Source: Crossaster papposus (taxonomy: Eukaryota > Echinodermata > Asteroidea > Velatida > Solasteridae). From it: a stretch of 64,000 nucleotides of DNA. The stretch is from the NCBI GenBank assembly GCA_037893245.1, contig JBAIAA010000251.1, positions 2,275,001 through 2,339,000 on the forward strand, written 5' to 3'. Below, in pieces: positions 3,077 to 64,000 of the stretch (within the stretch, counting starts at the first letter, position 1; every line of letters begins with the position of its first letter). The position numbers and the translations under genes were made by a program. The notes under the pieces are model-generated. The model ran no database searches. It was not told the DNA's origin and was given only the letters and a program-made list of their open reading frames with translations.

Positions 3077-3280
3077 TTAAAATAATCGACACTTTTCTGA
3101 ATAGAGTGACGTCACAAGAGTAGTTTAAATGTTTAGCATTACCCAGCTGCCGAGGAAAAAAAATTGCGAACCGCTACACGTAAACGTGGTTTAAGTTCAT
3201 GTATTGCCTTTTTGCCATGCAAACCTTTGAATCTCATCTGTCTTTCTTTCATTGGTCAGTTGTGAGTGTCAATCACGAAG

Positions 3281-5754: not shown

Positions 5755-6462
5755 TTATTTATAGCGCCACAGACCTGAAGTCCATAGCTGTCCCTAAAAC
5801 GTACCTTACGATACGCTAGACGATCAGACGATCCCCGTGGAGAAGGGGGGTTTAAACCGTTCGGGAGGTGCCATTTAACGAGCATGACGACCGGTTTAAA
5901 GATCCAGTCATTGCCAAAAACTCGGCACGAGGGGATACAAAGTTTATAGACAAAAAGATGGTAACAAACTGAACAAAAAGACGAACGATAATCTATATTT
6001 GTCTGGAATCAATAATTTATTTTAATTTTATAACTGGACATGTGACGAGTTATTATCAGGGACATTTGTAATATACATTTTGAGTACAAAATAAAGGTAT
6101 AATTATAAAACGAAAGTACTTCAACGTTCCATCAAGTTAGAGGATATTTTTAAGAAGGAATTATAGGTCTAGATTAACCATCAAATCGGAGGATATTTTT
6201 AGAAGGAAGTACGGGGCTAGATTAACTATCAAGTTGGATGATATTTTTTCTAAGGAACCACGGGGCTAGACTAACAATCAAGTTAGATAAATTCTTTTAT
6301 TTTTTGTTATTATTATTTTTTTATTTTTTTATAAAGAAATTACGGGGCTAGACTAACTATCAGGTTGGAGGATATTTTTAAGAAGGAATTATGGGGCTAG
6401 ACTAACCATCAGGTTGGAGTATATTTTTTAGAAGGAAACATGAAGTGTAAAAATCATTTTGG
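5755..6462 (+). repeat. Left terminal inverted repeat of the 14.9-kb element
   Basis: It matches the reverse complement of 19927-20632 over its whole length with scattered substitutions. The outer 250 bp are GC-richer; the inner part is repeats around GGATATTTTTAAGAAGGAAT. Confidence 0.8.
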
Positions 6463-12200: not shown

Positions 12201-12832
12201 TACAAGTTATTTTTATAAAAAATAACCAGTAATAGATCAGTTTATTTTTTAGCAGTATATAAGTATAGTAACAAAACTTATTCAGATCGAAACTCACCCC
12301 GAAATCAGTGAGACGGTCCCGTACAATCCAAGGACGCAGTACGGTAAATTTGCGTTTTAGTGTTTGTAGCAGTATAAGACAGAAGTGTAGCATCGATGGT
12401 AGCTGAGAGCGAAGTGTGAACGTGACGCAAGAATTTAAATCATCGATCTAGCAATGTGCGTTTCATACGCGCGCGCGCGTATTAATAACAAAAGGCTGGG
12501 CGCGTATCAGTAAAAAGAGTAGTCCAGTATCAGCGCAATACAAGTTTTCTTATAGGTTATTTATAAGAAATATTTATAATAGATCATCTCGTTCTCAAGA
12601 ATTATAGAAAAAATATTAGATTTATTAATTTATTAAAAATATTAAAAACCTAACCAGGGTAAATACAAATAAGCGTCGACAAATTAAGAAAACGTTCGTG
12701 AAAAGAAAGAAGAAAAGAGTTATAGCAAGAAAAAGAGAAACAGAAGCGAGAAAAAGATAGATGAACGGCCCCACAGACTCTCGAGAATTACGAAAGAACG
12801 CCAGTGCAAATCATTCGACTTGTCTCTCATTG
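9294..12832 (+). repeat. 3.54-kb tandem unit 2
   Basis: It is nearly identical to units 1 and 3. A minus-strand frame of 145 codons (12393-11956) is open but has no recognisable domain and no codon-conservation signal. Confidence 0.75.
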
Positions 12833-15800
12833 TTATTTATAGCGCCACAAACCTGAAGTCCATAGCTGTCCCTAAAACGTACCTTACGATACGATACGCT
12901 AGACGATCAGACGATCCCCGTGGAGAAGGGGGGTTTAAACCGTTCGGGAGGTGCCATTTAACGAGCATGACGACCGGTTTAAAGATCCAGTCATTGCCAA
13001 AAACTCGGCACGAGGGGATACAAAGTTTATAGACAAAAAGATGGTAACAAACTGAACAAAAAGACGAACGATAATCTATATTTGTCTGGAATCAATAATT
13101 TATTTTAATTTTATAACTGGACATGTGACGAGTTATTATCAGGGACATTTGTAATATACATTTTGAGTACAAAATAAAGGTATAATTATAAAACGAAAGT
13201 ACTTCAACGTTCCATCAAGTTAGAGGATATTTTTAAGAAGGAATTATAGGTCTAGATTAACCATCAAATCGGAGGATATTTTTAGAAGGAAGTACGGGGC
13301 TAGATTAACTATCAAGTTGGATGATATTTTTTCTAAGGAACCACGGGGCTAGACTAACAATCAAGTTAGATAAATTCTTTTATTTTTTGTTATTATTATT
13401 TTTTTATTTTTTTATAAAGAAATTACGGGGCTAGACTAACTATCAGGTTGGAGGATATTTTTAAGAAGGAATTATGGGGCTAGACTAACCATCAGGTTGG
13501 AGTATATTTTTTAGAAGGAAACATGAAGTGTAAAAATCATTTTGGGTGGGGGATAATTTTTAGAAGGAAATATAAGGTAGATGAACCATCATGGTAGTCA
13601 AATCATCTTTGCTAAGGGGATTTTTTTTTAGAAGGAAACATGGAGTGGACAAACCATTTTGGCTAGGGGGATATTTTTTAGAAGGGGTTATAAAGTAGAT
13701 GAACCATCTTGGTAGACGAATCGTCTTGGTTAGGGGATAATTTTTAGAAGGAAACATGAAGTGTACAAATCTTTTTGGGTGGGGGATAATTTTTAGAAGG
13801 AAATATAAAGTAGATGAACCATCATGGTAGTCGAATCATATTGGCTGAGGGAATATCTTTTTAGAAGGAAACATGGAGTGGACAAACCGATTTAACTAGG
13901 GGATATTTTTTAGAGGGGATTATAAGGTAGATGAACCATCTTGGTAGACGAATCGTCTTGGTTAGGGGATAATTTTTAGGAGGAGAGAATGGAGGGGACA
14001 AAACATTTTGGCTGGGGGATATTTATTAGAAACCATTTATTATTATTACGATAGCGTTTAAGTTAATGTAGTTGGACTCAAAAATGGATATCTGGTTTGT
14101 GCTGAAAGAAGTGAGTTAAGAAATGGAAGGAGAAACAAGAAAAAAGTGGATGGAGGGACAGTAAAAAGGTAGGTTGTAATGAGGAAAGAAGTGTAATTTT
14201 AGGGTAGAAATGATAGAAAAATAAAGAGGAAAGGTCTCCTTACTCTCGATGACCAGAAGAAACGCTGCGCTAGAACCAGCATATACATATTATTTATTGA
14301 TCGTTAACTTGGTTGTCGTTAAGATCGGAGTAAACATAAGGTTTACACATCCTAGATATACCTCACGATATATCAAACGTTAAATCTATCACCGTGGAAG
14401 CAAGGAGTTTTAAACCTCTCTAGGATTGCCTTTAGATGAGCATGACGACCAATTATAAACGATTTAGTCATATATCATACTCGGCAATAAGCGATAGATA
14501 GTAGGAAAACAGGTTATTAGTAAGTACAAAGATGCGTACCAGATAAAGGTTATAGATAGGCCAGATTCCTTTTTTGAAATTAATTTTGTTCAAGTTAGAT
14601 GGGGAGTTTGTTTGTTTGTTTATTTAAAGCGTAAACAACATTTATTCTAAAAATGTATGGGGCATAATTGAATGGATACGAAAGTTAATAGACAATAAAA
14701 TGGTAACAAACTAAAACACACATACGAACGGTAATCTGTATTTATCTGGAATCAATAATTTATTTTACTTTTATAACTGTACAGTGACGTGTTATTACCA
14801 GGAAATCAATTACTGAGTCTTAGGGTCAATAAAGCCGAGAGTCCTAGGGTTAATAAAGCCCAGAGTCCTTGGGGAAATAAGTTGAGAGTCCTAGGGTAAA
14901 TAAGGCCGAGAGTAGTAAATAATGTCGAGAGTCCTAGGGTAAAAATAAATAATTATACGAATGCAATCTTTGTGAACTTGGTTGATGTATCTGCCGAATG
15001 GAGTGGAGCAGGACTTTCTGTAGGCCAACTTCCAAGCGTTCAGGCGTTTAGAAACAGCCATCTTGTTAATGGTCCTTGATGCGTTAATGAATGACATCTG
15101 TGGGATTTAATGTTTTATAGAGAAGTGGAGGGAACTTTGGAATATTGAGGAAAAAATACATTGGGCCATAAGGACGCAGCGCGGGTATTTATCAGGACAG
15201 TAAAGAAACAAACTGATTAAAGTACAAGAATATTTACAGAGTTCAGGTTAGTATAGGTATTAAAGATGCCGGCGTGTAAAAGTTCTTACCAGTCAATTTT
15301 AGTAAATTTCAACAAGGAGACCATAAACAAAAATGTCTAAAAAGCGAGAACTCGTCAGGTGCAGTTCGCTCAGACCATGGGTAGGTTTCGTCTCGAGACT
15401 GCACGACCTACCCCATAAGAACTTTCACGTGGTGTTAGAGAGTCAGAGAAAAAAACAAGTGTAAAACGTACAATTACCTTGCAAAATTCTTGCTATAAGT
15501 TAAGGAAGAGGTGTAGAAGTTGAAAAGCCTGGTAACAGTATCACTTCACCTGGGCTTGTAGAGCACAAGGAACTGAAGGTTCTGTTATACAAAATTTCGT
15601 GGCGTAGCGAAGAGTGCTGTATCGGTAAAAGGGGGTCACAAGCGATCGATAGTCTATAGGAGCTATTTATTGGTTTATGAGTTATAAAATCAGATAATTT
15701 ATACAATAATGTAATAGGTTTATCGAATCGGATCGAAGGTAATTTACAAGTTATTTTTATAAAAAATAACCAGTAATAGATCAGTTTATTTTTTAGCAGT

Positions 15801-16376
15801 ATATAAGTATAGTAACAAAACTTATTCAGATCGAAACTCACCCCGAAATCAGTGAGACGGTCCCGTACAATCCAAGGACGCAGTACGGTAAATTTGCGTT
15901 TTAGTGTTTGTAGCAGTATAAGACAGAAGTGTAGCATCGATGGTAGCTGAGAGCGAAGTGTGAACGTGACGCAAGAATTTAAATCATCGATCTAGCAATG
16001 TGCGTTTCATACGCGCGCGCGCGTATTAATAACAAAAGGCTGGGCGCGTATCAGTAAAAAGAGTAGTCCAGTATCAGCGCAATACAAGTTTTCTTATAGG
16101 TTATTTATAAGAAATATTTATAATAGATCATCTCGTTCTCAAGAATTATAGAAAAAATATTAGATTTATTAATTTATTAAAAATATTAAAAACCTAACCA
16201 GGGTAAATACAAATAAGCGTCGACAAATTAAGAAAACGTTCGTGAAAAGAAAGAAGAAAAGAGTTATAGCAAGAAAAAGAGAAACAGAAGCGAGAAAAAG
16301 ATAGATGAACGGCCCCACAGACTCTCGAGAATTACGAAAGAACGCCAGTGCAAATCATTCGACTTGTCTCTCATTG
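12833..16376 (+). repeat. 3.54-kb tandem unit 3
   Basis: It is almost the same as unit 2, which suggests the most recent duplication in the array. A CGATA doubling near 12890 lengthens the unit start; unit 4 shares it. Confidence 0.75.
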
Positions 16377-19300
16377 TTATTTATAGCGCCACAAACCTGA
16401 AGTCCATAGCTGTCCCTAAAACGTACCTTACGATACGATACGCTAGACGATCAGACGATCCCCGTGGAGAAGGGGGGTTTAAACCGTTCGGGAGGTGCCA
16501 TTTAACGAGCATGACGACCGGTTTAAAGATCCAGTCATTGCCAAAAACTCGGCACGAGGGGATACAAAGTTTATAGACAAAAAGATGGTAACAAACTGAA
16601 CAAAAAGACGAACGATAATCTATATTTGTCTGGAATCAATAATTTATTTTAATTTTATAACTGGACATGTGACGAGTTATTATCAGGGACATTTGTAATA
16701 TACATTTTGAGTACAAAATAAAGGTATAATTATAAAACGAAAGTACTTCAACGTTCCATCAAGTTAGAGGATATTTTTAAGAAGGAATTATAGGTCTAGA
16801 TTAACCATCAAATCGGAGGATATTTTTAGAAGGAAGTACGGGGCTAGATTAACTATCAAGTTGGATGATATTTTTTCTAAGGAACCACGGGGCTAGACTA
16901 ACAATCAAGTTAGATAAATTCTTTTATTTTTTGTTATTATTATTTTTTTATTTTTTTATAAAGAAATTACGGGGCTAGACTAACTATCAGGTTGGAGGAT
17001 ATTTTTAAGAAGGAATTATGGGGCTAGACTAACCATCAGGTTGGAGTATATTTTTTAGAAGGAAACATGAAGTGTAAAAATCATTTTGGGTGGGGGATAA
17101 TTTTTAGAAGGAAATATAAGGTAGATAAACCATCATGGTAGTCAAATCATCTTTGCTAATGGGATATTTTGTTTAGAAGGAAACATGGAGTGGACAAAAC
17201 ATTTTGGCTAGGGGGATATTTTTTAGAAGGGGTTATAAAGTAGATGAACCATCTTGGTAGACGAATCGTCTTGGTTAGGAGATAATTTTTAGAAGGAAAC
17301 ATGAAGTGTACAAATCATTTTGGGTGGGGGATAATTTTTAGAAGGAAATATAAAGTAGATGAACCATCATGGTAGTAGAATCATCTTTGCCAAGGGGATA
17401 TATTTTTAGAAGGAAACATGGAGTGGACAAACCGATTTAGCTAGGGGGATATTTTTTAGAAGGGGTTATAAAGTAGATGAACCATCTTGGTAGACGAGCC
17501 GTCTTGGTTAGGGATAATTTTTAGAAGGAAATATAAAGTAGATGAACCATCATGGTAGTCGAATAATCTTTGCTAAGGGGATATTTTTTAGAAGGAAACA
17601 TGGAGTGGACAAACCATTTTGGCTAGGGGGGTATTTTTTAGAAGGGGTTATAAAGTAGATAAACCATCTTGGTAGACGAATCGTCTTGGTTAGGGGGTAA
17701 TTTTTAGAAGGAAACATGAAGTGTACAAATCATTTTGGGTGGGGGATAATTTTTAGAAGGAAATATAAAGTAGATGAACCATCATGGTAGTCGAATCATA
17801 TTGGCTAAGGGAATATTTTTTTTAGAAGGAAACATGGAGTGGACAAACCGATTTAGCTAGGGGGATATTTTTTAGAGGGGATTATAAGGTAGATGAACCA
17901 TCTTGGTAGACGAATCGTCTTGGTTAGGGGATAATTTTTAGGAGTAAAGAATGGAGGGGACAAAACATTTTGGCTGGGGGATATTTATTAGAAACCATTT
18001 ATTATTATTACGATAGCGTTTTAGTTAATGTAGTTGGACTCAAAAATGGATATCTGGTTTGTGCTGAAAGAAGTGAGTTAAGAAATGGAAGGAAAAACAA
18101 GAAAAAAGTGGATGGAGGGACAGTAAAAAGGTAGGTTGTAATGAGGAAGGAAATGTAATATTAGGGTAGAAATGATGGAAAAATAAAGAGGAAAGGTCTC
18201 CTTACTCTCGATGACCAGAAGAAACGCTGCGCTAGAACCAGCATATACATATTATTTAATGATCGTTAACTTGGTTGTCGTTAAGATCGGAGTAAACATA
18301 AGGTTTACACATCCTAGATATACCTCATGATATATCAAACGTTAAATCTATCACCGTGGAAGCAAGGAGTTTTAAACCTCTCTAGGATTGCCTTTAGATG
18401 AGCATGACGACCAATTATAAAAGATTTAGTCATATATCATACTCGGCAATAAGCGATAGATAGTAGGAAAACAGGTTATTAGTAAGTACAAAGATGCGTA
18501 CCAGATAAAGGTTATAGATAGGCCAGATTCCTTTTTTGAAATTAATTTTGTTCAAGTTAGATGGGGAGTTTGTTTGTTTGTTTATTTAAAGCGTAAACAA
18601 CATTTAGTCTAAAAATGTATGGGGCATAATTGAATGGATACGAAAGTTAATAGACAATAAAATGGTAACAAACTAAAACACACAGACGAACGGTAATCTG
18701 TATTTATCTGGAATCAATAATTTATTTTACTTTTATAACTGTACAGTGACGTGTTATTATCAGGAAATCCATTACTGAGTCTTAGGGTCAATAAAGCCGA
18801 GAGTCCTAGGGTTAATAAAGCCCATAGTCCTTTGGGAAATAAGTTGAGAGTCCTAGGGTAAATAAGGCCGAGAGTAGTAAATAATGTCGAGAGTCCTAGG
18901 GTAAAAAGAAATAATTATACGAATGCAATCTTTGTGAACTTGGTTGATGTATCTGCCGAATGGAGTGGAGCAGGACTTTCTGTAGGCCAACTTCCAAGCG
19001 TTCAGGCGTTTAGAAACAGCCATCTTGTTAATGGTCCTTGATGCGTTAGTGAATGACATCTGTGGGATTTAATGTTTTATAGAGAAGTGGAGGGAACTTT
19101 GGAATATTGAGGAAAAAATACATTGGGCCATAAGGACGCAGCGCGGGTATTTATCAGGACAGTAAAGAAACAAACTGATTAAAGTACAAGAATATTTACA
19201 GAGTTCAGGTTAGTATAGGTATTAAAGATGCCGGCGTGTAAAAGTTCTTACCAGTCAATTTTAGTAAATTTCAACAAGGAGACCATAAACAAAAATGTCT

Positions 19301-19926
19301 AAAAAGCGAGAACTCGTCAGGTGCAGTTCGCTCAGACCATGGGTAGGTTTCGTCTCGAGACTGCACGACCTACCCCATAAGAACTTTTACGTGGTGTTAG
19401 AGAGAGAGAAAAAAAAAACAAGTGTAAACATAAAAATACCTTGCAGTCGGTCAAATTGCGTTATAGCGCTAGTATACAGAGAAAGGCGTATAGCATCGAT
19501 GGCAGCTAGGAGCGAAGTGTGAACGTGACGCAGGAATTTGAATCATCATTCTAGCCATGTGCGCTCCACACGCGCACGTGTTAAAAACAATCGTTGGCGC
19601 GTATCAATAAGGTGTGTGGCGCAGCATCAGAGTAATACAAGTATTCGATAAGGTTAATAACGAATTGTTTATATTAGACGTATCTCGTTCTCAAGAATTA
19701 TTGAAATAAAAAATATATTTGATTAATTATTTATAAAGATACAAAAATCTTAATTATGGTAATAAAAATAGGCGTCGACAAATTGAGAAAACGTTCGTGA
19801 AAAGAAAGAAGAAAAGAGTTGTAGTAAGAAAGGGAAAAACAGAAGAGAGAAAAAGATAGATGAACGGCCCCGCAGACTCTCGAGAATTACGAAAGAACGC
19901 CAGTGCAAATCATTCGACTTGTCTTT
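16377..19926 (+). repeat. 3.54-kb tandem unit 4 (diverged)
   Basis: The minisatellite region is expanded (about 17040-17960). The 3' portion is shortened and diverged from 19400 onward, where units 1-3 carry the 145-codon frame region. Confidence 0.7.
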
Positions 19927-21366: not shown

Positions 21367-22435
21367 ACGCGACGAACCAGTCTGAGTCACCGTTGGAGTA
21401 AATCGGATGTGCAAGGGCCGCATGTGCAGGGTTCACCACGGTTGTTTTGTCAGGTACGTGACTTCATTTCCGGTCTGTATTTCCTCCAAAGCTCTAGGAG
21501 CCATTTCCATTGAGCTGCTAAGAACAATAAATTGGCTTAGCACAACAATGCCCTGCTCAGTTAAAAAGTTTAGACTCCATTGTTTTTTTCCGGGGCGCCT
21601 CCCAAATAAACCAGTTAAACATTCTACCTGAGTTTAAACCCTTTATAATTGTATGCATGTCTTGAGCTAAATCAATTAAGTAAAATAATAATAATAATGA
21701 AGACCCCCCCCCCCCCCCCTCTTAAACACATTAAACACATTATGATAACTTTAGTGTTCAAGCGGCTTTGGCATTAAACCCAGTAAATGCGTTAACATCA
21801 AAATCAATTTCAAAACATTCGCAGAACAGTATTTTTAAATCTTGATGTAGAGCGTAGAGATATGGAACTCGACAATTTGTTTTCATGATGTTTTGTATTA
21901 ATAGGTTCCCTTTAATAATAATCGTGGCTGGAGTTGTTTCATAAAGGGGGCTCCACATACAACACGAACTGAACACTGAACAAATCACGACCGGTGTACG
22001 TACAAGTCAGTGGTTCGAGTGGTCTTTCATTAAGGAAGTCACAATAAAATATTGTTCAAGGCACTTATCTAGCTAACCCGGTTTTTCCTTTAGCCTTGCT
22101 CTCTGGTTAAGATATTCCACAAGAAAATTGGTAAACGTTAACAACAGCTGCATTCGAACCAGAGACCTTTCGATTAATAGCCCATCTCTCTATACAAACT
22201 AGGCTATGGTGAGTTAGTTAAGGACAGGGGTTCTTTAGAGTTTGTTAATAATAGATCAGTTGTCATTGTTCTTTTCATGATTATATGTTTAGCATTACCC
22301 AGCTGCCGAGGAAAAAAATTGCGAACCGCTACACGTAAACGTGGTTTAAGTTCATGTATTGCCTTTTTGCCATGCAAACCTTTGAATCTCATCTGTCTTT
22401 CTTTCATTGGTCAGTTGTGAGTGTCAATCACGAAG

Positions 22436-23171
22436 CACGCGTTTGAACGTGTCATCGACGTCTATAAAACGTCAACTAATAAGATGTGTTCATTTCACAT
22501 TTCAGTGTCGGTGACTGAAAACCACATAAACGTAACTTCTGTCTCATGAATATTAAACGAGTCAGTGGTGCGTGATTGACAGCGCACTAGGAGCCACGCG
22601 TTTGAACGTGTCATCGACGTCTATAAAATGTCAACCAATAAGATATGTTCATTTCACAGTGTCGGTGACTGAAAGTTGCATTTAACATCATGAATATTAA
22701 ACGAGTCAGTGGTGCGTGATTGACAGCGCACTAGGGGCCACGCGTTTGAACGTGTCATCGACGTCTATAAAATGTCAACCAATAAGATGTGTTCATTTCA
22801 CAGTGTCGGTGACTGAAAGTTGCATTTAACATCATGAATATTAAACGAGTCAGTGGTGCGTGATTGACAGCGCACCAGGGGCCACGCGTTTGAACGTGTC
22901 ATCGACGTCTATAAAATGTCAACCAATAAGATGTGTTCATTTCACAGTGTCGGTGACTGAAAGTTGCATTTAACATCATGAATATTAAACGAGTCAGTGG
23001 TGCGTGATTGACAGCGCACTAGGGGCCAAGCGTTTGAACGTGTCATCGACGTCTATAAAATGTCAACCAATAAGATGTGTTCATTTCACAGTGTCGGTGA
23101 CTTAAAGTTGCATTTAACATCATGAATATTAAACGAGTCAGTGGTGTGTGATTGACAGTGCGCTAGGGGCC
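22436..23171 (+). promoter_or_regulatory. Tandem 144-bp repeat array with TATA/initiator in each unit, copy 2
   Basis: Five units start near 22436, 22594, 22739, 22883 and 23027, each with TATAAAA and TCATTTC at 29-base spacing. Units end with a conserved block around CATCATGAATATTAAACGAG and GCGTGATTGACAG. It lies upstream of the C1q 5' exons, as in copies 1 and 3. Confidence 0.55.
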
Positions 23172-24168: not shown

Positions 24169-25813
24169 GTAGGCCTTACTGTATTAAAAACAAATAACGT
24201 TATATTTTTTAACAAAACCATTGACGTATCTTGGGAGGAGCTATAGCTAAACAATCAGCGAGACAAATTCTTAAATATTACCGTATTTACAGAGTTTTTC
24301 AGTCAGGATATTATATCTTTCCCAGTTATTTTAACACTAGTATCATACATTCTTATAACGACACTTTACTTTCGTCCCCGAACATTGCCTAGCTCAATTC
24401 TCAATTTAAAAAATAGTTATCAACGAATTCCATTCTAGATCAAGTATTATTGCAATTTGTATACCTTTCTGATTCCTCCTAAAATTGTGAAATTCGTTTC
24501 ACGGGGCTTTCGAAATTAAATAAAAAAATAACTAATTTTGGTCTTTTTTGTCGTTTGTTTCAAGACTCTTGGTAATTTAAACACAACAAAAATAACCATA
24601 AGGTGTGATAGTAAACAGAACAAAATGCAACAACAGCGTCTAAATCTATTAAAATAAAAACAAAGCAAAATACCCAAAACCACACATTAATTTACGACGA
24701 ATCGCAATGCTCTAATTAAAATTATACTGCAATTTTAATCAAATCCCTTTGTAATTTTGAAATTGAGAATCAAGAGTTGAGCTCGACGATGTTTGCGGAC
24801 GAAATTAAAGTGCAAATATAATGAATTTCTGGAGAAGAGGAGAGGTGGGGTTTGGCCCTACTTTATAGCTTGATTCAAAACCCGTACAACACTCTTCCTC
24901 AAAAAAGTTGTTCTGTCAAATTTGTTTTGCCGCTTTATACAAACCGACCAAAACGAACATCTGAAGTTATTTTGTATGCGCTCTACCCGAGAACCTTTTA
25001 ATTCAATTTTGTTTTGCTTCTTTTTCTGTTTAATAATTAGTCCCTTTTGTGATTTATATTGTCTACTTTTGGTATTTCATACAGAATGAAGATCTTGGTG
25101 GCAACCGTTCTTTCAATCGCCCTCCTTCTGGGTAACTCTGTCAAGCTCCGAGCTTCCGTCACTGGGCCGGTTGCCACGGACGGTGATGTTCCAGCGTCTC
25201 ATGCGTGTCCGATGTGCTGCCAGGGACCTGCTGCCGCACATGGTATACCAGGTTTAAATGGGCAGATCGGACCGATGGGACCCTACGGCCAGCCGGGGTC
25301 AAAGGGCGACGCAGGTCAGCCGGGTCAAATTGGCGATATCGGGCCAATCGGTCCAATGGGTGAGCGGGGAGCACTTGGGAACGCTGGGCCTAAAGGTGAC
25401 GATGGGATAGGTCAGCCCGGCAAGATAGGTCCGAAAGGTCTGCAGGGTGTAGTCGGAAGTCCTGGTCAGACTGGTGTCAAAGGTCAGAAGGGTGAGCCAG
25501 GGGAGACACCAGACGACTCCAACCAGCGGGTAGCATTCACCGCGGTGAGGACGAGCGGCTCTGATACCTCTACGAGTCGCGACACCCGTTTGCCCTTCCA
25601 GCAGATCGAGACGCTTCTGCCGGGTACCAGCTTCGATCTCGGGACCGGCACGTTCACGTGTACTGTGCCGGGCACCTACGTGTTTACGTTTTCTGTGAAC
25701 AAATCTCCTTCCAGCAGCCCCCTGTACGTTCATCTCCGGAAGAACGACGACGATGTTGTCACTGGCCTTAGCAATGATTCAGGTAACTATGAGCCAGTCA
25801 GTCCGCAGCGCAC

Positions 25814-32300: not shown

Positions 32301-34148
32301 TACGGAGCTCTGGAAGTGCCATCCGACTTGTTTACATCCTGACATATTTTATCTCAGGATGACGACATAATAGAGGCAAAATGACGACATCCTTTAATAT
32401 TTGTTTGCGTAATGGCGAGATCCTGAGATAATATATATCGTGTGATGACGACATGCTGAAAGTAGGATGACGACATCCCGAGATAATATATCGCGGGATG
32501 ACGAAATGCTGAAAGTAGGATGACGACATCCCGAGATAACATATCGCGGGATACAACATGCTAAAAGTAGGATGACGACATCCCGAGATAATATATCGCG
32601 GGACGACGACATCCTGAGATAATTTATCGCGGGATGACGACATGCTAAAAGAAGGGTGACGACATCCTGAGATAATATATCGCGGGATGACGACATGTTG
32701 AAAGTGGGATGACGACATCCTGAGATAATATATCGCGGGATGACGACATCCTGAGAGTAGGATGACGACATCCTGAGATAATATATCCCGGGATGACAAC
32801 CTGCTGCTGAAACTATGTAGGATCCTGATTAGATCAGCAATACGGAAGCTTAAAGTGACCATCCGTGTTTCCGCGTTTCAGAATGAAAAACCATGTAAAG
32901 ATGGACACTTGGTGCAATGCTCGCAGTCAGCATACGATAGGCCGGGTAGCAGCGCGGCGAGTCTCTGCCTCGATTTTTGTCATACCCCTTGCGAGGTTTT
33001 ATGTTAATGAGGCTTCCCTTTGAGGGGCGGAGTGGTTTGACAAAAAAATTCAAAAATTATTTTGTCCCATTTATCACAGAAAATAAACACAACCACACAC
33101 ATAATGTTGTTGTCAACATTATACTTTATTGATTTAAGCAAACAAAATCCGTATTACATGTTTCCTTTAATCAATCCGTATGGTAGGCTTTGTCTATTTC
33201 CGTGACGCTTTTGCTTTGGTCTTGACGCTTTGACTTTGGTCGTGACAGTTGTGGACCACCGTAGTATTTCGTTAAAAGACGTCTTCTTGAGAGATATGAT
33301 TTAATATCCTGGAAAGACGTCTTTCCAAGATACGATTATCATGGAAAGGCGTCTTTTTGTGATACGATTATCATAGAAAGACGTCTTTCTGAGATACGAT
33401 ATTAGGAAAGATATATTTAAGAGATACGATATCACGGAAAAACATATTTTTATATCAGTATTCCGTCTTTTTGAGAAAAATTATCTCAGAAACGTGGAAA
33501 CGCGGATGGTCACTTTAAGCTTCCGTATTGCTGATCTAATCAGGATCCTACATAGTTTCAGCAGCATGTCGTCATCCCGGGATATATTATCCCAGGATGT
33601 CGTCATCCTACTTTCAACATGTCGTCATCCCGCGATATATTATCCCAGGATGTCGTCATCCTACTTTTAGCATGTCGTCATCCTGCGATATATTATCTCA
33701 GGATGTCGTCATCCTACTTTCAACATGTCGTCATCCCGGGATATATTATCCCAGGATGTCGTCATCCTACTTTCAACATGTCGTCATCCTGCGATATATT
33801 ATCTCAGGATGTCGTCATGCTCTTTTCAACATGTCGTCATCCTATTTTCAACATGTCGTCATCCCGCAATATATTATCTCAGGATGTCGTCATCCTACTT
33901 TCAACATGTCGTCATCCTGCGATATATTATATCAGGATGTCGTCATCCTATTTTCAACATGTTGTCATCCCGCGATATATTATCTCAGGATGTCGTCATC
34001 CTACTTTCAGCATGTCGTCATCACGCGATATATTATCTCAGGATGTCGCCATTACGCGAACAAATATCAAATGATATCAGGATGTCGTCCTGAGATAAAA
34101 TATGTCAGGATGTAAACAAGTCGGATGGCACTTCCATATTTTTCCGTA
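32301..34148. mobile_element. Foldback element E1 with satellite arms, copy 2
   Basis: The terminal repeats start TACGGAGCTCTGGAAGTGCC; the right end is GGCACTTCC...TCCGTA. The flanking 6-bp direct repeat is TTTTTC (32295-32300, 34149-34154). The arms (to about 32880 and from 33492) are mostly 53-bp tandem units with GGATGACGACATCC cores, inverted between the arms. The central 0.6 kb has no gene and includes short repeats around GATACGATTATCATGGAAAG. Confidence 0.75.
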
Positions 34149-34300
34149 TTTTTCAGATGAATAACATTTTTGACTAACAAATAGTCACTTTTCTCACTTC
34201 CGGAAACTTGTTTTAACCTCAAATTGATTCTGGACTTTTCAATGTTTCCTCTTTATTAAAAGAAGAAGAAGATAATCGTTTCCTCATTTTTCCTCAAAAG

Positions 34301-35047
34301 TACGGAGCTCTGGAAGTGCCATCCGACTTGTTTACATCCTGACATATTTTATCTCAGGGTGACGACATAATAAAGGTAAAATGACGACATCCTTTGATAT
34401 TTGTTCGCGTAATGGCGACATCCTGGGATATTATATCGCGGGATGACGACATCCTGAAAGTACGATGACGACATCCTGAGATAGTATATCTCGGGATGAC
34501 GACATGTTGAAAGTATGATGACGATATCTTGAGATAATATATCGCTGGATGACGACATGCTGAAAGTGGGATGACAACATCCTGAGATAATATCTCAGGA
34601 TGTCGTCATTACGCGAACAAATATCAAAGGATGTCGTCATTTTGCCCTTATTATGTCGACATCCCGCGATATCTTATCTCAGGATGTCGTCATCCCACTT
34701 TCAACATGTCGTCATCCCGCGATATATTATCTCAGGATGTCATCATCATACTTTTAGCATGTCGTCATCCCGCGATATATTATCTCAGGATGTGGTCATC
34801 CCACTTTCAGCATGTCGTCATCCCGCGATATATTATATCGGGATGTCGTCATCGTACTTTCAACATGTCGTCATCCGGCGATATCTTATATCAAGATGTT
34901 GTCATCGTACTTTATATTATCTCAGGATGTCGCCATTACGCGAACAAATATCAAAAGATGTCGTCATTTTGCCTCTATTATGTCGTTATCCTGAGATAAA
35001 ATATGTCAGGATGTAAACAAGTCGGATGGCACTTCCAGAGCTCCGTA
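34301..35047. mobile_element. Foldback element E2 with satellite arms, copy 2
   Basis: Same family as E1, smaller. The TACGGAGCTCTGG ends are perfectly inverted, and the 6-bp target duplication CAAAAG lies at 34295-34300 and 35048-35053. The arms meet near 34590 with almost no loop. Confidence 0.78.
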
Positions 35048-46536: not shown

Positions 46537-47616
46537 ACGCGACGAACCAGTCTGAGTCACCGTTGGAGTAAATCGGATGTGCAAGGGACGCGTGTGCAGG
46601 GTTCACCAAGTTCATGTTGTTTTGTCAGGTACGTGACTTCATTTCCGGTCTGTATTTCCTCCAAAGCTCTAGGAGCCATTTCCATTGAGCTGCTAAGAAC
46701 AATACATTGGCTTAGCACAACAATGCCCTGCTCAGTTAAAAAGTTTAGACTCCATTGTTTTTTTCCGGGGCGCCTCCCAAATAAACCAGTTAAACATTCT
46801 ACCTGAGTTTAAACCCTTTATAATTGTATGCATGTCTTGAGCTAAATCAATTAAGTAAAATAATAATAATAATGAAGACCCCCCCCCCCCCCCTTAAACA
46901 CATTAAACACATTATGATAACTTTAGTGTTCAAGCGGCTTTGGCATTAAACCCAGTAAATGCGTTAACATCAAAATCAATTTCAAAACATTCGCAGAACA
47001 GTATTTTTAAATCTTGATGTAGAGCGTAGAGATATGGAACTCGACAATTTGTTTTCATGATGTTTTGTATTAATAGGTTCCCTTTAATAATAATCGTGGC
47101 TAGAGTTGTTTCATAAAGGGGGCTCTACATACAACACAAACTGAACACTGAACAAATCACGACCGGTGTACGTACAAGTCAGTGGTTCGAGTGGTCTTTC
47201 ATTAAGGAAGTCACAATACAATATTGTTCAAGGCACTTATCTATCTAACCCGGTTTTTCCTTTAGCCTTGCTCTCTGGTTAAGATATTCCACAAGAAAAT
47301 TTGTAAACGTTAACAACAGCTGCATTCGAACCAGAGACCTTTCGATTAATAGCCCATCTCTCTATACAAACTAGGCTATTGGCGAGTTAGTTAAGGACAG
47401 GGGTTCTTTAGAGTTTGTTAATAATAGATCAGTTGTCATTGTTCTTTTCATGATTATATGTTTAGCATTACCCAGCTGCCGAGGAAAAAAATTGCGAACC
47501 GCTACACGTAAACGTGGTCCAAGTTCATGTATTGCCTTTTTGCCATGCAAACCTTTGAATCTCATCTGTCTTTCTTTCATTGGTCTTTCTTTCAGTTGTG
47601 AGTGTCAATCACGAAG

Positions 47617-48352
47617 CACGCGTTTGAACGTGCCATCGACGTCTATAAAACGTCAACTAATAAGATATGTTCATTTCACATTTCAGTGTCGGTGACTGAA
47701 AGCGACATAAACGTAACTTCCGTCTCATGAATATTAAACGAGTCAGTGGTGCGTGATTGACAGCGCACCAGGGGCCACGCGTTTGAACGTGTCATCGACG
47801 TCTATAAAATGTCAACCAATACGATGTGTTCATTTCACAGTGTCGGTGACTGAAAGTTGCATTTAACATCATGAATATTAAACGAGTCAGTGGTGCGTGA
47901 TTGACAGCGCACTAGGGGCCAAGCGTTTGAACGTGTCATCGACGTCTATAAAATGTCAACCAATAAGATGTGTTCATTTCACAGTGTCGGTGACTGAAAG
48001 TTGCATTTAACATCATGAATATTAAACGAGTCAGTGGTGCGTGATTGACAGCGCACCAGGGGCCACGCGTTTGAACGTGTCATCGACGTCTATAAAATGT
48101 CAACCAATAAGATGTGTTCATTTCACAGTGTCGGTGACTGAAAGTTGCATTTAACATCATGAATATTAAACGAGTCAGTGGTGCGTGATTGATAGCGCAC
48201 TAGGGGCCAAGCGTTTGAACGTGTCATCGACGTCTATAAAATGTCAACCAATAAGATGTGTTCATTTCACAGTGTCGGTGACTGAAAGTTGCATTTAACA
48301 TCATGAATATTAAACGAGTCAGTGGTGTGTGATTGACAGTGCGCTAGGGGCC
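47617..48352 (+). promoter_or_regulatory. Tandem 144-bp repeat array with TATA/initiator in each unit, copy 3
   Basis: There are five head-to-tail units; the first is about 159 bp and the others 144 bp, starting near 47617, 47776, 47920, 48064 and 48208. Each unit carries GTCTATAAAA and, 29 bases downstream from the first T of TATA to the A, a TCATTTC that fits the initiator consensus YYANWYY. A CCAAT lies between them. In the last unit TATA begins at 48235 and the initiator A is 48264. The array ends about 160 bp before the exon-1 donor. Promoter function is inferred from motif spacing and position. Confidence 0.55.
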
Positions 48353-48514
48353 AATTACAAACCGGGCAACGTTCCTCAGTCACTGCTTAGGAAATCACTG
48401 GCAAGTTTTTTAAGGCAGGAGCGCACGCTTTATTTCTCACAACGATCGCAACTCATCTTCGCCTTCGGCAGGACAGCCAGAGAGTGACCTGAACGCAAGA
48501 ACGAGATTTACAAG
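48264..48514 (+). other. Predicted noncoding 5' exon 1 of C1q gene, copy 3
   Basis: A 5' UTR exon is predicted from the initiator-like TCATTTC (A at 48264) of the last 144-bp repeat to the donor AAG|GTAAGG after 48514. The donor is perfect and is conserved in all three duplicate copies. The true transcription start is inferred only; any of five repeats could supply it. Confidence 0.5.
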
Positions 48515-49279
48515 GTAAGGTTCTGTGACAGATGGAAACAGGCTTTTCAAGTCTTGAGATGAAATTAATGTTTGTATTCCTTCTTGATTAGTGGTTCTTA
48601 CAAAAGTATGTTTTAAACAAAACTCGTGAATAGAGTAAGTTGTGTCAGATTATATTTTGACTCTCTGCTCCGCTGTCCATGTAAATGGTTGTAAAAGGCC
48701 GTTCATGTACTTGGGGTCCCCTATACATGTATACCCTTGATACTGTGCTTGATGTTCAGGCTGTTCCACCATCCTTCTGACATGCTTTAATGAGCACACA
48801 CAGCCTACCCCAGCATCCTACCAAGCATCGTTTAGCATCATGTCAGAATCTGCCGCGTATCCTGTTCCAGAATTTTCCACCTCATGTCCACTGAACTCGG
48901 CACCATCCATAACCCATACTGTTGTTAGCGCAAGCATCCCATCCTATTGATTTGTTTCACCACTCCATGCAAACCCTTAGGGCATAAGTCTTATTTAAAA
49001 GGGTTGGAGCAAACGTCAAATGTATTGTATTCCTTCTTTGCATCCACAGACTCCCCTTGCTATCTCCCCATTTTGTCATCATCTTTGTTACTTTCTTTTT
49101 AGGGACAGCTGCTCGCTTTGATAAAACATAATGATATCACAACATCAACAACAAACAAACAAACAAATTATAGCCTTTACGCTGACAACAGCCTCAAAGC
49201 GCTGTAAAAATACATTAAAATAAACAAATAAAGAGACTTGTTGTGAGTTAAGGTGTTTGTTTTTTTGTATTATTTTCAG

Positions 49280-49349
49280 GTGACATTCAACTTCAGTCAC
49301 TAAGATTTCTTCCCGGCGGCTGAGCTCTGATTAAGAACACCACGTCAAG
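49280..49349 (+). other. Predicted noncoding 5' exon 2 of C1q gene, copy 3
   Basis: This 70-bp segment lies between a pyrimidine-rich acceptor (TTGTATTATTTTCAG) and the donor TCAAG|GTAGGC. Both sites are retained in copies 1 and 2. The segment contains no ATG that would compete with the start in exon 3, so it is read as 5' UTR. Confidence 0.5.
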
Positions 49350-50271
49350 GTAGGCCTTACTGTATTAAAAACAAATAACGTTATATTTTTTAACAAAACC
49401 ATTGACGTATCTTGGGAGGAGCTATAGCTAAACAATCAGCGAGACAAATTCTTAAATATTACCGTATTTACAGAGTTTTTCAGTCAGGATATTATATCTT
49501 TCCCAGTTATTTTAACACTAGTATCATACATTCTTATAACGACACTTTACTTTCGTCCCCGAACATTGCCTAGCTCAATTCTCAATTTAAAAAATAGTTA
49601 TCAACGAATTCCATTCTAGATCAAGTATTATTGCAATTTGTATACTTTTCTGATTCCTCCTAAAATTGTGAAATTCGTTTCACGGGGCTTTGGAAATTAA
49701 ATAAAAAAATAACTAATGTTGGTGTTTTTTTTTGTCGTTTGTTTTAAGACTCTTGGTCATTTATATACAAAAATTAACCATAACGTTTGATAGTAAACAG
49801 AACAAAATGTAACGACAACAGCGTCTAAATCTATTAAAATAAAAACAAAGCAAAATACCCAAAACCACACATTAATTTACAACGAATCGCAATGCTCTAA
49901 TTAAAATTATACTGCAACTTTAATCAAATCCCTTTGTAATTTTTGAAATTGAGAATCAAGAGTTGAGCTCGACGATGTTTGCGGACGAAATTAAAGTGCA
50001 AATATAATGAATTTCTGGAGAAGAGGAGTGGTGGGGTTTGGCCCTACTTTATAGCTTGATTCAAAACCCGTACGACACTCTTCCTCAAAAAAGTTGTTCC
50101 GTCAAATTTGTTTTGCCGCTTTATACAAACCGACCAAAACGAACATCTGAAGTTATTTTGTATGCGCTCTACCCGAGAACCTTTTAATTCAATTTTTGTT
50201 TGCTTCTTTTTCTGTTTAATAATTAGTCCCTTTTGTGATTTATATTGTCTACTTTTGGTATTTTATACAGA

Positions 50272-51108
50272 ATGAAGATCTTGGTGGCAACCGTTCTTTC
50301 AATCGCCCTCCTTCTGGGTAACTCTGTCAAGCTCCGAGCTTCCGTCACTGGGCCGGTTGCCACGGACGGTGATGTTCCAGCGTCTCGGGCGTGTCCGATG
50401 TGCTGCCAGGGACCTACTGCCGCACATGGTATACCAGGTTTAAATGGGCAGATCGGACCGATGGGACCCTACGGCCAGCCGGGGTCAAAGGGCGACGCAG
50501 GTCAGCCGGGTCAAATTGGCGATATCGGGCCAATCGGTCCAATGGGTGAGCGGGGAGCACTTGGGAACGCTGGGCCTAAAGGTGACGATGGGATAGGTCA
50601 GCCCGGCAAGATAGGTCCGAAAGGTCTGCAGGGTGTAGTCGGAAGTCCTGGTCAGACTGGTGTCAAAGGTCAGAAGGGTGAGCCAGGGGAGACACCAGAC
50701 GACTCCAACCAGCGGGTAGCATTCACTGCGGTGAGGACGAGCCTCTCTGATACCTCTACGAGTAGCGACACCCGTTTGCCCTTCCAGCAGACCGAGACGC
50801 TTCTGCCGGGTACCAGCTTCGATCTCGGGACCGGCACGTTCACGTGTACTGTGCCGGGCACCTACGTGTTTACGTTTTCTGTGAACAAATATTCTTCCAG
50901 CCGCCTGTACGTTCATCTCCGGAAGAACGACGACTATGTTGTCTCTGGCTTTAGCTATGATTCAAGTCTCAGTGAGCAGGTGTCTGGGAGCGCGGTGCTG
51001 GTTCTGCAGCGAGGAGACACGGTGGGGCTTACCATGTACGGTAGGGTGTTTAGTGAATCCACCTATCACCGCACCTCATTCAGTGGCTTCCTCCTTTACC
51101 CCGAATAA
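50272..51108 (+). CDS. Secreted collagen-like C1q-domain protein, intact copy 3
   Basis: The frame encodes 278 residues. Residues 1 to about 24 form a signal peptide (MKILVATVLSIALLLGN...). A Cys cluster CPMCCQG lies at 41-47, a Gly-X-Y collagen stretch at about 53-140 with one break near GDDGIGQPG, and a C1q/TNF-like globular domain at about 148-278. Recognisable C1q blocks are RVAFTAVRTS, CTVPGTYVFTFSV, LYVHLRKND, LVLQRGDTVGLTMYG and the terminal SGFLLYPE. Proteins of this build are secreted, trimerise through the collagen and C1q parts, and often act as lectin-like recognition molecules in invertebrate immunity; that role is inferred here. The start was chosen at ATG 50272 because an acceptor (TTTTATACAG) ends at 50270. 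A longer frame opens at 50245, inside the intron. Two noncoding 5' exons lie upstream. The TAA stop is embedded in AATAAA. Confidence 0.88.
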   Translation: MKILVATVLSIALLLGNSVKLRASVTGPVATDGDVPASRACPMCCQGPTAAHGIPGLNGQIGPMGPYGQPGSKGDAGQPGQIGDIGPIGPMGERGALGNAGPKGDDGIGQPGKIGPKGLQGVVGSPGQTGVKGQKGEPGETPDDSNQRVAFTAVRTSLSDTSTSSDTRLPFQQTETLLPGTSFDLGTGTFTCTVPGTYVFTFSVNKYSSSRLYVHLRKNDDYVVSGFSYDSSLSEQVSGSAVLVLQRGDTVGLTMYGRVFSESTYHRTSFSGFLLYPE

Positions 51109-51429
51109 ATAATAAATAATTGCTGAAACAGTAGTCGTATTAAAAAGAAATAATATTCAATGTCATAATAATCAATATTTGTTAAGCATCTTAGTCTTCA
51201 TAAAAAGTTTCAAAACACCTTACCAACCGACATAAAAACTACATGAAAAACAATTTAATCAAAAGTAATATTTGTATAGAACTTGTTTTATAGGTTGCGT
51301 ATGTTTTTATTTCACACTCGACACTTGTCGCAATAGCTGAAATACATACGGTGTTTTAATTCTAAACCTTGTTTCAATACGATTTAATGCAGTTAATTAG
51401 TTGTACAATGAACTATCGACGTACTAATA

Positions 51430-51838
51430 AATATCTTACTTATTTGAAAGAAAACAAATGATTCTAGGCATCCAGCAAAATGAATACGGTAGATATCGTG
51501 TAATTGTTCAGAATTGTTTAAACAAATTCACAATCGCCCGCTGGCGAATGCGACAAAACATAATAATAACTGCCCGACTTTGGTTAACCCTAACTCCCTA
51601 CACAACAAAGAAAGTTGGAGGATTTTGAAGGAATTGTATTGTTCAATAACAATGGTGAGGGAGTTAGGGTTAAAAAAAGAATGCCGTTTTTCTTGCTTTT
51701 CTCGGCATCCATGATTGTAAAACTTCGGACAGGTCAATTAAACGATATTTACTATAGAATACAACCGAACCCCCCAAATCCACCCATTCATAATAATTTA
51801 AGCAATTACCAATGGTGTATCCTAGTCCTTTAAATGTT
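51430..51838 (-). mobile_element. Same MITE family, copy 3 left, with a nested element
   Basis: Orthologous to 29060-29385, but interrupted by the 82-bp TTAA element at 51588-51669. Confidence 0.55.
51588..51669. mobile_element. 82-bp piggyBac-like miniature element
   Basis: Ends CCCTAACTCCC and GGGAGTTAGGG are flanked by TTAA on both sides (51584-51587, 51670-51673). Copy 2 has TTGA and no insert at the same place. TTAA targets with CCC-starting ends are typical of piggyBac-type elements. Confidence 0.6.
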
Positions 51839-55040: not shown

Positions 55041-56856
55041 TACGGAGCTCTGGAAGTGCCATCCGACTTGTTTACATCCTGACATATTTTATCTCAGGAT
55101 GACGACATAATAGAGGCAAAATGACGACATCCTTTAATATTTGTTCGCGTAATAGCGACATCCTGAGATAATATATCGCGAGATGACGACATGCTGAAAG
55201 TAGGATGACGACATCCCGAGATAACATATCGCGGGATGACGACATGCTAAAAGTATGATGACGACATCCCGAGATAATATATCGCGGGATGACGACATCC
55301 TGAGACAATATATCACGGGATGACGACATGTTGAAAATAGGATGACGACATCCTGAGATAATATATCGCGGGATGACGACATGTTGAAAGTAGGATGACG
55401 ACATCCTGAGATAATATATCGCGGGATGACGACATCCTGAGAGTAGGATGACGACATCCTGAGATAATATATCGCGGGATGACGACATGCTGAGAGTAGG
55501 ATGACGACATCCTGAGATAATATATCCCGGGATGACAACATGCTGCTGAAACCATGTAGGATCCTGATTAGATCAGCAATACGAAAGCTTAAAGGGACCA
55601 TCTGCGTTTCCGCGTTTCAGAATGAAAAACCATGTAAAGACGGACACTTGGTGCAATGCTCGCAGTCAGCATACGATAGGCCGGGTAGCAGCGCGGCGAG
55701 TCTCTGCCTCGATTTTTGTCATACCCCTTGCGAGGTTTTATGTTAATGAGGCTTCCCTTTGAGGGGCGGAGTGGTTTGACAACAAATTTCAAAAATTATT
55801 TTGTCCCATTTATCACAGAAAATAAACACAACCACACACATAATGTTGTTGTAAACATTATACTTTATTGATTTAAGCAAACAAAATCCGTATTACATGT
55901 TTCCTTTAATCAATCCGTATGGTAGGCTTTGTCTATTTCCGTGACGCTTTTGCTTTGGCCTTGACGCTTTGACTTTGGTCGTGACAGTTGTGGACCACCG
56001 TAGTATTTCGTTAAAAGACGTCTTCTTGAGAGATATGATTTAATATCCTGGAAAGACGTCTTTCCAAGATACGATTATCATGGAAAGGAGTCTTTTTGTG
56101 ATACGATTATCATAGAAAGACGTCTTTCTGAGATACGATATTAGGAAAGATATATTTCCGAGATACGACATCACGGAAAGACATATTTTTATATCAGTAT
56201 TCCGTCTTTTTGAAATAAATTATCTCAGAAACGCGGAAACGCGGATGGTCACTTTAAGCTTCCGTATTGCTGATCTAATCAGGATCCTACATAGTTTCAG
56301 CAGCATGTCGTCATCCCAGGATATATTATCCCAGGATGTCGTCATCCTACTTTCAACATGTCGTCATCCCGCGATATATTATCCCAGGATGTTGTCATCC
56401 TACTTTTAGCATGTCGTCATCCCGGGATATATTATCCCAGGATGTCGTCATCCTACTTTCAACATGTCGTCATCCTGCGATATATTATCTCAGGATGTCG
56501 TCATGCTATTTTCAACATGTCGTCATCCTATTTTCAACATGTCGTCATCCCGCGATATATTATCTCAGGATGTCGTCATCCTACTTTCAACATGTCGTCA
56601 TCCTGCGATATATTATCTCAGGATGTCGTCATGCTATTTTCAACATGTCGTCATCCTATTTTCAACATGTCGTCATCCCGCGATATATTATCTCAGGATG
56701 TCGTGATCCTACTTTCAGCATGTCGTCATCATGCGATATATTATCTCAGGATGTCGCCATTACGCGAACAAATATCAAAGGATATCAGGATGTCGTCCTG
56801 AGATAAAATATGTCAGGATGTAAACAAGTCGGATGGCACTTCCATATTTTTCCGTA
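55041..56856. mobile_element. Foldback element E1 with satellite arms, copy 3
   Basis: Orthologous to the 32301-34148 element. The right target duplication TTTTTC is at 56857-56862; the left one has become a T run. Arm unit numbers differ from copy 2. Confidence 0.75.
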
Positions 56857-57009
56857 TTTTTCAGATGAATAACATTTTTGACTAACAAATAGTCACTTTT
56901 CTCACTTCCAGAAACTTGTTTTAACCTCAAATTGATTCTGGACTTTTCAATGTTTCCTCTTTATAAAAAAAAAAAAGAAGATAATCCTATCCCCATTTTT
57001 CCTCAAAAG

Positions 57010-57914
57010 TACGGAGCTCTGGAAGTGCCATCCGACTTGTTTACATCCTGACATATTTTATCTCAGGATGACGACATAATTAGGTAAAATGACGACATCC
57101 TTTGATATTTGTTCGCGTAATGGCGACATCCTAAGATAATATATCGCGGGATGACGACATCCTGAAAGTACGATGACGACATCCTGAGATAATATATCGC
57201 GTGATGACGACATGTTGAAAGTAGGATGACGACATCCTGATATAAGATATCGCGGGATGACGACATGTTGAAAGTAGGATGGCGACATCCTGAGATAATA
57301 TATCTTGGGATGACGATATGTTGAAAGTATGATGACGACATCTTGAGATAATATATCGCTGGATGACGACATGCTGAAAGTGGGATGACGACATCCTGAG
57401 ATAATATCTCAGGATGTCGTCATTACGCGAACAAATATCAAAGGATGTCGTCATTTTGCCCTTATTATGTCGTCATCCCGCGATATCTTATATCAAGATG
57501 TTGTCATCCTACTTTCAAGATGTCGTCATCACGCGATATATTTTCTCAGGATGTCGTCATCGTACTTTCAGGATGTCGTCATCCCGCGATATATTATCTC
57601 AGGATGTCGCCATTACGCGAACAAATATCAAAGGATGTCGTCATTTTGCCCTTATTATGTCGTCATCCCGCGATATCTTATATCAAGATGTTGTCATCCT
57701 ACTTTCAAGATGTCGTCATCACGCGATATATTTTCTCAGGATGTCGTCATCGTACTTTCAGGATGTCGTCATCCCGCGATATATTATCTCAGGATGTCGC
57801 CATTACGCGAACAAATATCAAAGGATGTCGTCATTTTGCCTCTATTATGTCGTCATCCTGAGATAAAATATGTCAGGATGTAAACAAGTCGGATGGCACT
57901 TCCAGAGCTCCGTA
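57010..57914. mobile_element. Foldback element E2 with satellite arms, copy 3
   Basis: Orthologous to 34301-35047 and flanked by CAAAAG (57004-57009, 57915-57920). Its right arm has gained a duplicated block of about 190 bp (57420-57610 repeated at 57610-57800). Confidence 0.78.
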
Positions 57915-62817: not shown

Positions 62818-63668
62818 TTTCCCAGTAACCCGGAATTCAATGATAAGGTATCTCAGTAACCCGGAATGCAATGATAAGGTATCTCAGTAACCCGGAATGC
62901 AATGATAAGGTATCTCGGTAACCCGAAATGCAGTGATAAGGTATCTCAGTAACCCGGAATGCAATGATAAGGTATCTCAGTAACCCGGAATGCAGTGATA
63001 AGGTATCTGGGTAACCCGAAATGCAACGATGAGGTATCTCAGTAACCCGAAATGCAGTGATACGGTATCTCGGTAACCCGAAATGCAGTGATACGGTATC
63101 TCGGTAATCCGAAATGCAGTGATACGGTATCTCAGTAACCCGAAATGCAGTGATACGGTATCTCGGTAACCCGGAATGCAGTGATAAGGTATCTTAGTAA
63201 CACAAAATGCAATGATAAGGTATCTCGGTAACCCGAAATGCAGTGATACGGTATCTCAGTAACCCGAAATGCAGTGATACGGTATCTCGGTAACCCGGAA
63301 TGCAGTGATAAGGTATCTTAGTAACACAAAATGCAATGATAAGGTATCTCGGTAACCCGAAATGCAGTGATACGGTATCTCAGTAACCCGAAATGCAGTG
63401 ATACGGTATCTTGGTAACCCGGAATGCAGTGATAAGGTATCTTAGTAACACAAAATGCAATGATAAGGTATCTCAGTAACCCGAAATGCAGTGATACGGT
63501 ATCTCAGTAACCCGAAATGCAGTGATACGGTATCTCGGTAACCCGAAATGCAGTGATACGGTATCTCAGTAACCCGAAATGCAATGATGAGGTATCTCGG
63601 TAAACCGGAATTCAATGATAAGGTATCTCAGTAATGAAAATACAATGATAAGGTATCTAAGTAGACTC
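62818..63668 (+). repeat. 31-bp satellite with 124-bp higher-order period
   Basis: About 27 units of GGTATCTCAGTAACCCGAAA with TGCAGTGATAC. A variant unit with CTTAGTAACACAAAATGC recurs at 63192, 63316 and 63440, exactly four units apart. The array starts about 100 bp after the end of duplication copy 3. Confidence 0.8.
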
Positions 63669-64000
63669 GAAAGGCAATGGTAATGAAAATGAAATTCAAT
63701 GACCGCCAAATATTCATGTTGAAAACACAACAAATATTCCCAGTTGACTTCATCTAAAAACAAGTACATCTTTGAATCCCGATTTCAGGAATCATAATTG
63801 ATTCCCCACGGTAGGATACCAGCATACTTGTGTGAATGTAAGGCTCAACGCAAGAAAGATGTTTTTCATGTTTGTAAGTATTGTATACTTGATTGATCCA
63901 ATTCATAACAGAAAGCCTTAGTTTGGTCAGTAGACCATAGGGCGTCCAATTGTAGCCGATAGTGATATTTTCGTTTTACTCTACTCCGGTACAAAAACAA
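63669..64000. other. Right-edge sequence, no feature recognised
   Basis: Unique AT-rich sequence after the satellite; no gene or repeat recognised. Confidence 0.4.

Follow-up and report, generated by a model that had tools for sequence, protein, structure and literature searches.

Arrays of promoter-like units and the adjacent genes in the window

On sequence grounds, the tandem array described here is the putative proximal promoter of a single, very large C1q family with about 500 gene copies, not a stray satellite, and the gene family behind the arrays is a larger finding than the array itself. Each array is probably the proximal promoter of its C1q gene, duplicated head to tail, with the last unit as the main candidate Pol II start; the promoter reading itself we consider likelier to be right than wrong. 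The window (the whole stretch of 64,000 nt analyzed, C251:2275001-2339000 of the assembly) contains three copies of the region, with the following features.

3267-3872, plus strand: copy 1 array of four promoter units, not followed by a C1q exon (homology ends at 5754)
22422-23171, plus strand: promoter-unit array of copy 2, five units
25086-25781, plus strand: C1q coding part of copy 2, head frame disrupted (homology with copy 3 stops at 25781)
47603-48352, plus strand: copy 3 array of five promoter units, with steps of 159/144/144/144 bp
47603-47762, plus strand: unit 1 of copy 3, with a 17-nt inverted repeat at its ends, 88% complementary, TGTCAATCACGAAGCAC / GTGGTGCGTGATTGACA
47644-47677, plus strand: TATAAAA...TCATTTC pair of copy 3 unit 1, TCATTTC at 47671, putative +1 A at 47673
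47803-47836, plus strand: TATA-Inr pair of unit 2, TCATTTC at 47830, A at 47832
47947-47980, plus strand: TATA-Inr pair of unit 3, TCATTTC at 47974, A at 47976
48091-48124, plus strand: TATA-Inr pair of unit 4, TCATTTC at 48118, A at 48120
48235-48268, plus strand: TATA-Inr pair of unit 5, the putative favored productive start, TCATTTC at 48262, A at 48264
48264-48514, plus strand: putative leader exon 1 if the start is in unit 5, donor GT at 48515, exon limits predicted
49280-49349, plus strand: putative untranslated exon 2, predicted from splice signals
50271-51108, plus strand: exon 3 with the complete C1q frame of 278 aa (ATG at 50272), signal peptide, collagen and C1q head

In every one of the 14 units that the three arrays contain (four, five and five in copies 1, 2 and 3) TATAAAA and TCATTTC are separated by 27 bp from start to start and by 29 bp to the A, that is, within the approximately 25-31 bp between the TATA box and the initiator A (+1) of Pol II promoters. 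The motif pair, its constant spacing and the unit counts of the initial annotation are thereby confirmed. Its other statements hold in part: the 144-bp step applies to the later units, while 159 bp separate the first unit, itself diverged, from the second; the splice donor is indeed downstream of the array, but separated from it by 163 nt (48352 to the GT at 48515), not immediately adjacent; and the gene that the arrays were said to precede has an intact reading frame in copy 3 only, being cut short in copy 2 and absent from copy 1, which, judging from the loss of homology at 5754, ahead of the C1q exon, has lost that exon. The region 5755-19445, where the copy 1 exon would be expected, is occupied by approximately four tandem copies of a 3.54-kb unit, with pieces 97-99.5% identical.

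The copy 3 protein has the features of a C1q-like secreted protein, namely a signal peptide (identified by reading only), collagen repeats (PF01391, E 1.3e-13) and a C-terminal C1q domain (PF00386, E 9.1e-23).

Outside the arrays, the exact TATAAAA-N20-TCATTTC combination is absent from both strands of the 64-kb window. A loose pair, TATAWA with TCAKTY 25-29 bp on, occurs there twice on the plus strand and four times on the minus strand, compared to a mean of 0.8 and a maximum of 6 in 60 Markov-random windows, one strand read. For a single ancestral unit, a TATA-Inr pair is thus only mildly unlikely to arise by chance, and the copies are not independent. The promoter reading draws its weight from the pair being kept up and placed 5' of the leader exon.

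One more element of the unit is TGATTGACA, which we take to be a PBX-MEIS type site. It has 16 matches in either orientation in the 64 kb, all inside the arrays: 13 for the 14 units on the right, and one at each of the three left edges, where it is inverted, which gives unit 1 of copy 3 its 17-nt inverted ends.

Genome-wide distribution of the arrays

The assembly (1.02 Gb, 1841 contigs) is that of a sea star: COX1 on a mitochondrial contig reads best, judged by eye among eight codes, with the echinoderm code (table 9), and the tRNAs of that contig follow the sea-star order. It was searched with patterns allowing up to 3 mismatches, which miss more diverged units, and with the reversed patterns as controls. 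The unit core was found at 1144 places, the first-unit edge at 508, the later-unit edge at 957, the leader flank at 475, and the C1q coding start at 515, with 0 places for each reversed control. These counts fit a single array for each gene, averaging about 2.9 units.

Among the matches listed (contigs C22 and C31, 100 of 1144 places) all 37 unit clusters are located upstream of a C1q gene in the same orientation, with the leader flank less than 2 kb downstream in 26 of them and the coding start less than 4.5 kb downstream in 34. The placement of promoter-like units directly 5' of a C1q-family leader exon, proposed from the window, is thus reproduced in these clusters and agrees with the edge, leader and coding counts. 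The opposite case, a satellite abundant away from genes, is represented by none of the 37 clusters listed on the two contigs.

Duplicate haplotypes were considered as a source of the copy number and rejected on two grounds: the large-subunit exons of what are probably three polymerases occur at one place each (on C932, C24 and C355), besides a bacterial copy on C8, a check that reaches as far as these large-subunit genes tell, and all 22 complete C1q heads compared differ in their loops. A mobile element ended by the 17-nt inverted repeat was also rejected, as the edge counts agree with the gene counts and no target-site copy is seen by reading.

First-unit edges also occur in series: four of them, about 2.2 kb apart, precede one listed C1q coding start at C130:5507378-5516663, and edge pairs 2460 bp apart are present on C130, C185 and C187. 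On these contigs the promoter region seems, from the edge positions, to be duplicated at a second, larger scale. Separately, C8, the contig of loci L029, L031 and L032, is longer than 5 Mb and carries genes of bacterial type, free of interruptions, for cytochrome oxidase and RNA polymerase; it is probably a bacterial companion genome within the assembly.

Variation among gene copies and in unit number

The copies compared form two groups, A and B, which differ by approximately 12-20% around the promoter. The 20 loci L009-L028, best matches to a five-unit query and, as a sample, biased to five units, all contain the same region from the array to the C1q exon in pieces about 94-99% identical, with lower identity farther out and insertions in some. 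The frame is complete in 14 of the 20, the exceptions being L009, L012, L018, L019, L020 and L026. In L020 (6642-8702) the C1q exon is broken by an insert whose frame resembles, by eye, a non-LTR reverse transcriptase. Group B consists of nine loci on other contigs (L033-L041), picked for a perfect coding start on contigs that have no perfect leader among the matches listed; their aligned pieces are mostly 80-92% identical to the window, the arrays have one to three units with steps of mostly 153 bp, and the frame is complete in all seven loci, out of nine, fetched far enough. Three more loci, L043-L045, were taken from the list of leader matches.

Unit number ranges from 2 to 10 in the 29 arrays whose edges both appear without mismatch among the matches listed: two units in 3 arrays, three in 8, four in 3, five in 12, and six, nine and ten in one array each. 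Unit number thus varies between paralogous copies. By reading, the single-unit locus L039 has a first-unit head joined to a last-unit tail, which looks like a loss of units by unequal exchange.

In five-unit arrays, units of the same rank in different arrays differ at 1.56 positions per 106 bp, units of other ranks at 1.81, and units within one array at 1.80. Since same-rank units resemble one another across arrays about as closely as units do inside a single array, the arrays were copied whole with the gene, and we infer that subsequent gain and loss of units would have proceeded by unequal exchange. Whole-array copying also fits a neutral passenger, that is, a small tandem repeat hitchhiking in a duplicating gene region, and between groups A and B the whole array is indeed no better kept than the neighboring intron. 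This explanation is very unlikely, however, given that conservation is uneven within the unit and that the block around Inr is unchanged across both groups.

Conservation of the putative core promoter motifs

We have compared 156 units from 35 arrays, collected with a 35-mer that holds both motifs with up to 10 mismatches, a procedure favoring kept motifs. TCATTTC is present in 155 of 156 units and TATAAAA in 146 of 156. The TATA box deviates from the TATAWAW consensus in nine units, including the last unit of L017, a locus with a complete frame; five of the nine have TATAATA in one type of non-last unit, found in five of the nine group B loci, and in L034 the TATAATA unit is the first unit left.

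Off-consensus cells were counted without L012 unit 2 and L020 unit 2, which have indels in the TATA region, and without L044 unit 1. In the 22 units of group B they number 0/154 in Inr, 6/154 in TATA and 17/440 in the spacer, and make up 16% of each flank. In the 106 later units of group A the respective values are 1/742, 1/742 and 12/2120, with 86/4664 in the upstream and 13/2968 in the downstream flank; in the 25 first units of group A, 0/175, 1/175 and 12/500, with 8/1100 upstream and 12/700 downstream. In the last units of 15 loci (six from group A and nine from group B) the 28 columns around Inr, ATGTGTTCATTTCACAGTGTCGGTGACT, are unchanged.

For 38 distinct 70-bp units, taken without L012 unit 2 and L020 unit 2, a tree built from the same columns as those tested gives Inr one step, its TTCATTT core none, and TATA four, at a mean of 0.74 per site. 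On this same-column tree, TATA and Inr taken together at their true spacing require five steps, the third lowest value of 37 offsets, which is matched by 0.049 of random site sets. The evidence, modest as it is, makes the Inr block the best-kept part of the unit, with TATA fairly well but less strictly kept and, in group B, no better kept than the spacer.

The kept block TTCATTTCACAG, cut before TG, could also be read as a repeated 3' splice site offering alternative acceptors for a leader begun upstream. It does contain a pyrimidine-rich stretch followed by CAG, and by reading TTTCAG is still found at the end of the 5-bp insertion that the first units of group A carry. Such a reading leaves the TATA box unexplained, and we regard it as highly improbable.

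A search for an RNA gene in the unit, covering 47000-51500, gave nothing in Rfam with E up to 1. A bacterial promoter scan gave four matches, compared to 2.1 expected, and was set aside as having no meaning in an animal.

Putative transcription starts and the possible role of unit number

With the promoter reading, the ancestral unit would have had a factor site of the TGATTGACA type upstream of its TATA box, then an initiator with a strongly kept block after it, and unequal exchange would alter the number of such units. Pol II would most likely start at the last unit, yielding a 251-nt leader exon that would be spliced to a second untranslated exon and then to the single coding exon. The leader sequence ACAAGGTAAG is identical across the 15 aligned loci. 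Spliced retrocopies were tried as start-site markers and dropped: the 35-mers of the exon 1-2 and exon 2-3 junctions occur at 0 places each with up to 3 mismatches.

Given the predicted exons, starts at units 1-5 of copy 3 would produce 5' UTRs of 913, 754, 610, 466 and 322 nt with 13, 10, 7, 4 and 1 upstream AUGs, respectively. We favor the last unit as the productive start because each unit above it adds three upstream AUGs. The upstream units may then be extra platforms for factors and the PIC, or minor, poorly translated starts that would add upstream AUGs to the mRNA.

The initial annotation suggested instead that every unit is an equivalent, productive start, so that unit number sets the output. 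The spacing of TATA and Inr, constant in 14 of 14 window units, and the variable unit number speak for equivalence. However, starts above the last unit would carry 4 to 13 upstream AUGs compared to one, TATA is less strictly kept, and the units with TATAATA in five of nine group B loci look less constrained than equals would be; equivalence of the units is accordingly doubted, and we find it unlikely.

About as improbable is an array acting as an enhancer-like platform for upstream factors, with transcription started elsewhere, e.g., at the pair of TTTTAAGG and a TCATTCC-like motif inside the leader. The confinement of the 16 TGATTGACA matches of the window to the arrays would suit such a platform, and within the leader TTTTAAGG...CTCACAACGA is likewise well conserved. 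Still, the leader pair is too closely spaced, whereas the unit pair keeps its spacing, and by reading the leader TCATTCC of group B corresponds to TTATTTC in group A.

A further, doubtful suggestion is that unit number (1-10) could serve as a per-gene dial, setting the choice of the start site and the number of upstream AUGs across a germline repertoire of about 500 genes whose products have near-identical stalks and hypervariable loops at the tip. Were this true, unequal exchange would re-tune the expression of single members of the repertoire, leaving the coding part untouched.

Variable loops of the C1q head

The proteins read so far differ mainly in four loops that probably touch targets. 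Among the 22 complete heads compared, from window 50740-51075 and loci L010-L042, no two have the same loop combination; L041 was left out for its length (322 aa), and L037 and L038, as the fetched stretch ends early. In the 16 complete proteins of group A, pN and pS are 0.174 and 0.059 in the head loops, 0.011 and 0.0225 in the head scaffold, and 0.013 and 0.031 in the signal peptide and collagen part. The loop pN/pS ratio is 2.96 within group A (16 proteins) and 2.23 within group B (six proteins), for columns chosen by eye after the alignment had been seen. A second choice of columns, with at least three residues in group A alone, gave 23 columns, 20 of them in the head; tested in the six proteins of group B, these have pN 0.357 and pS 0.122, compared to pN 0.024 and pS 0.042 in other columns. 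Alignment column 161 has seven different residues in 16 proteins, and the third codon base is always C. The raised pS of the loops may indicate faster mutation, exchange or misalignment there, adding to selection; divergence of the neighboring non-coding DNA is 0.7-3%.

The predicted structure has a mean pLDDT of 56.2 over the whole model, with values below 50 for residues 1-145 and block means of 70-94 for the head (151-278), which resembles solved C1q heads (top TM-score 0.88 by target length). Fourteen of the 20 variable head sites fall into loops of the model (p = 0.0009), and all 20 are in or beside four loops, whose limits were set afterwards. Judging from the up-and-down strand order, the four variable loops should all be turned toward the tip opposite the collagen stalk.

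Comparison with known systems

Bivalve C1q genes mostly have no collagen. The expansion of bivalve C1qDC genes, with 476 genes in Crassostrea virginica, is similar to the one described here, as far as the excerpted text of PMC6835236 extends, in comprising hundreds of tandemly duplicated C1q genes, with diversifying selection at few head sites and a conserved scaffold. The sea-star family likewise shows the features of an expanded repertoire, many near-identical copies (515 coding starts) with excess amino-acid change at few head sites, and by this analogy it is a candidate germline recognition repertoire of the bivalve kind. Unlike the bivalve set, it is one near-identical, collagen-bearing subfamily of an echinoderm in which a promoter-like unit is repeated. 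In the cassettes read so far the encoded C1q heads have hypervariable tip loops; for sea stars, 59 is the largest printed C1q count found (PMC6409975, in excerpt). A published three-way count, also in excerpt, deals with the same domain and gives the sea star the highest value of three; here, by comparison, one subfamily alone has about 515 coding starts.

Spacer promoters of ribosomal DNA, tandemly duplicated in the frog, can serve as enhancers. Unit number in variable-number promoter repeats may alter expression; unlike these, the sea-star unit contains a whole TATA-Inr core, and its number varies between paralogues. The ribosomal spacer promoters resemble our arrays in being extra promoters 5' of the gene promoter (PMC6815422, in excerpt), and differ in using Pol I rather than Pol II and in not preceding a coding gene. 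Among the titles and opening lines of abstracts listed, none deals with arrays of Pol II core promoters in front of an immune gene family, and none describes a comparable sea-star C1q family. About 500 closely related natural promoter-gene cassettes in one genome, differing in unit number, constitute a ready experiment on tandem core promoters.

Other repeats in the window

At 32412-34913 and 55156-57865 of the window the near-palindrome GGATGACGACATCC, present in both orientations, is the basis of densely arrayed 22/31/53-bp repeats, and a 31-bp satellite with about 28 copies is located at 62823-63683.
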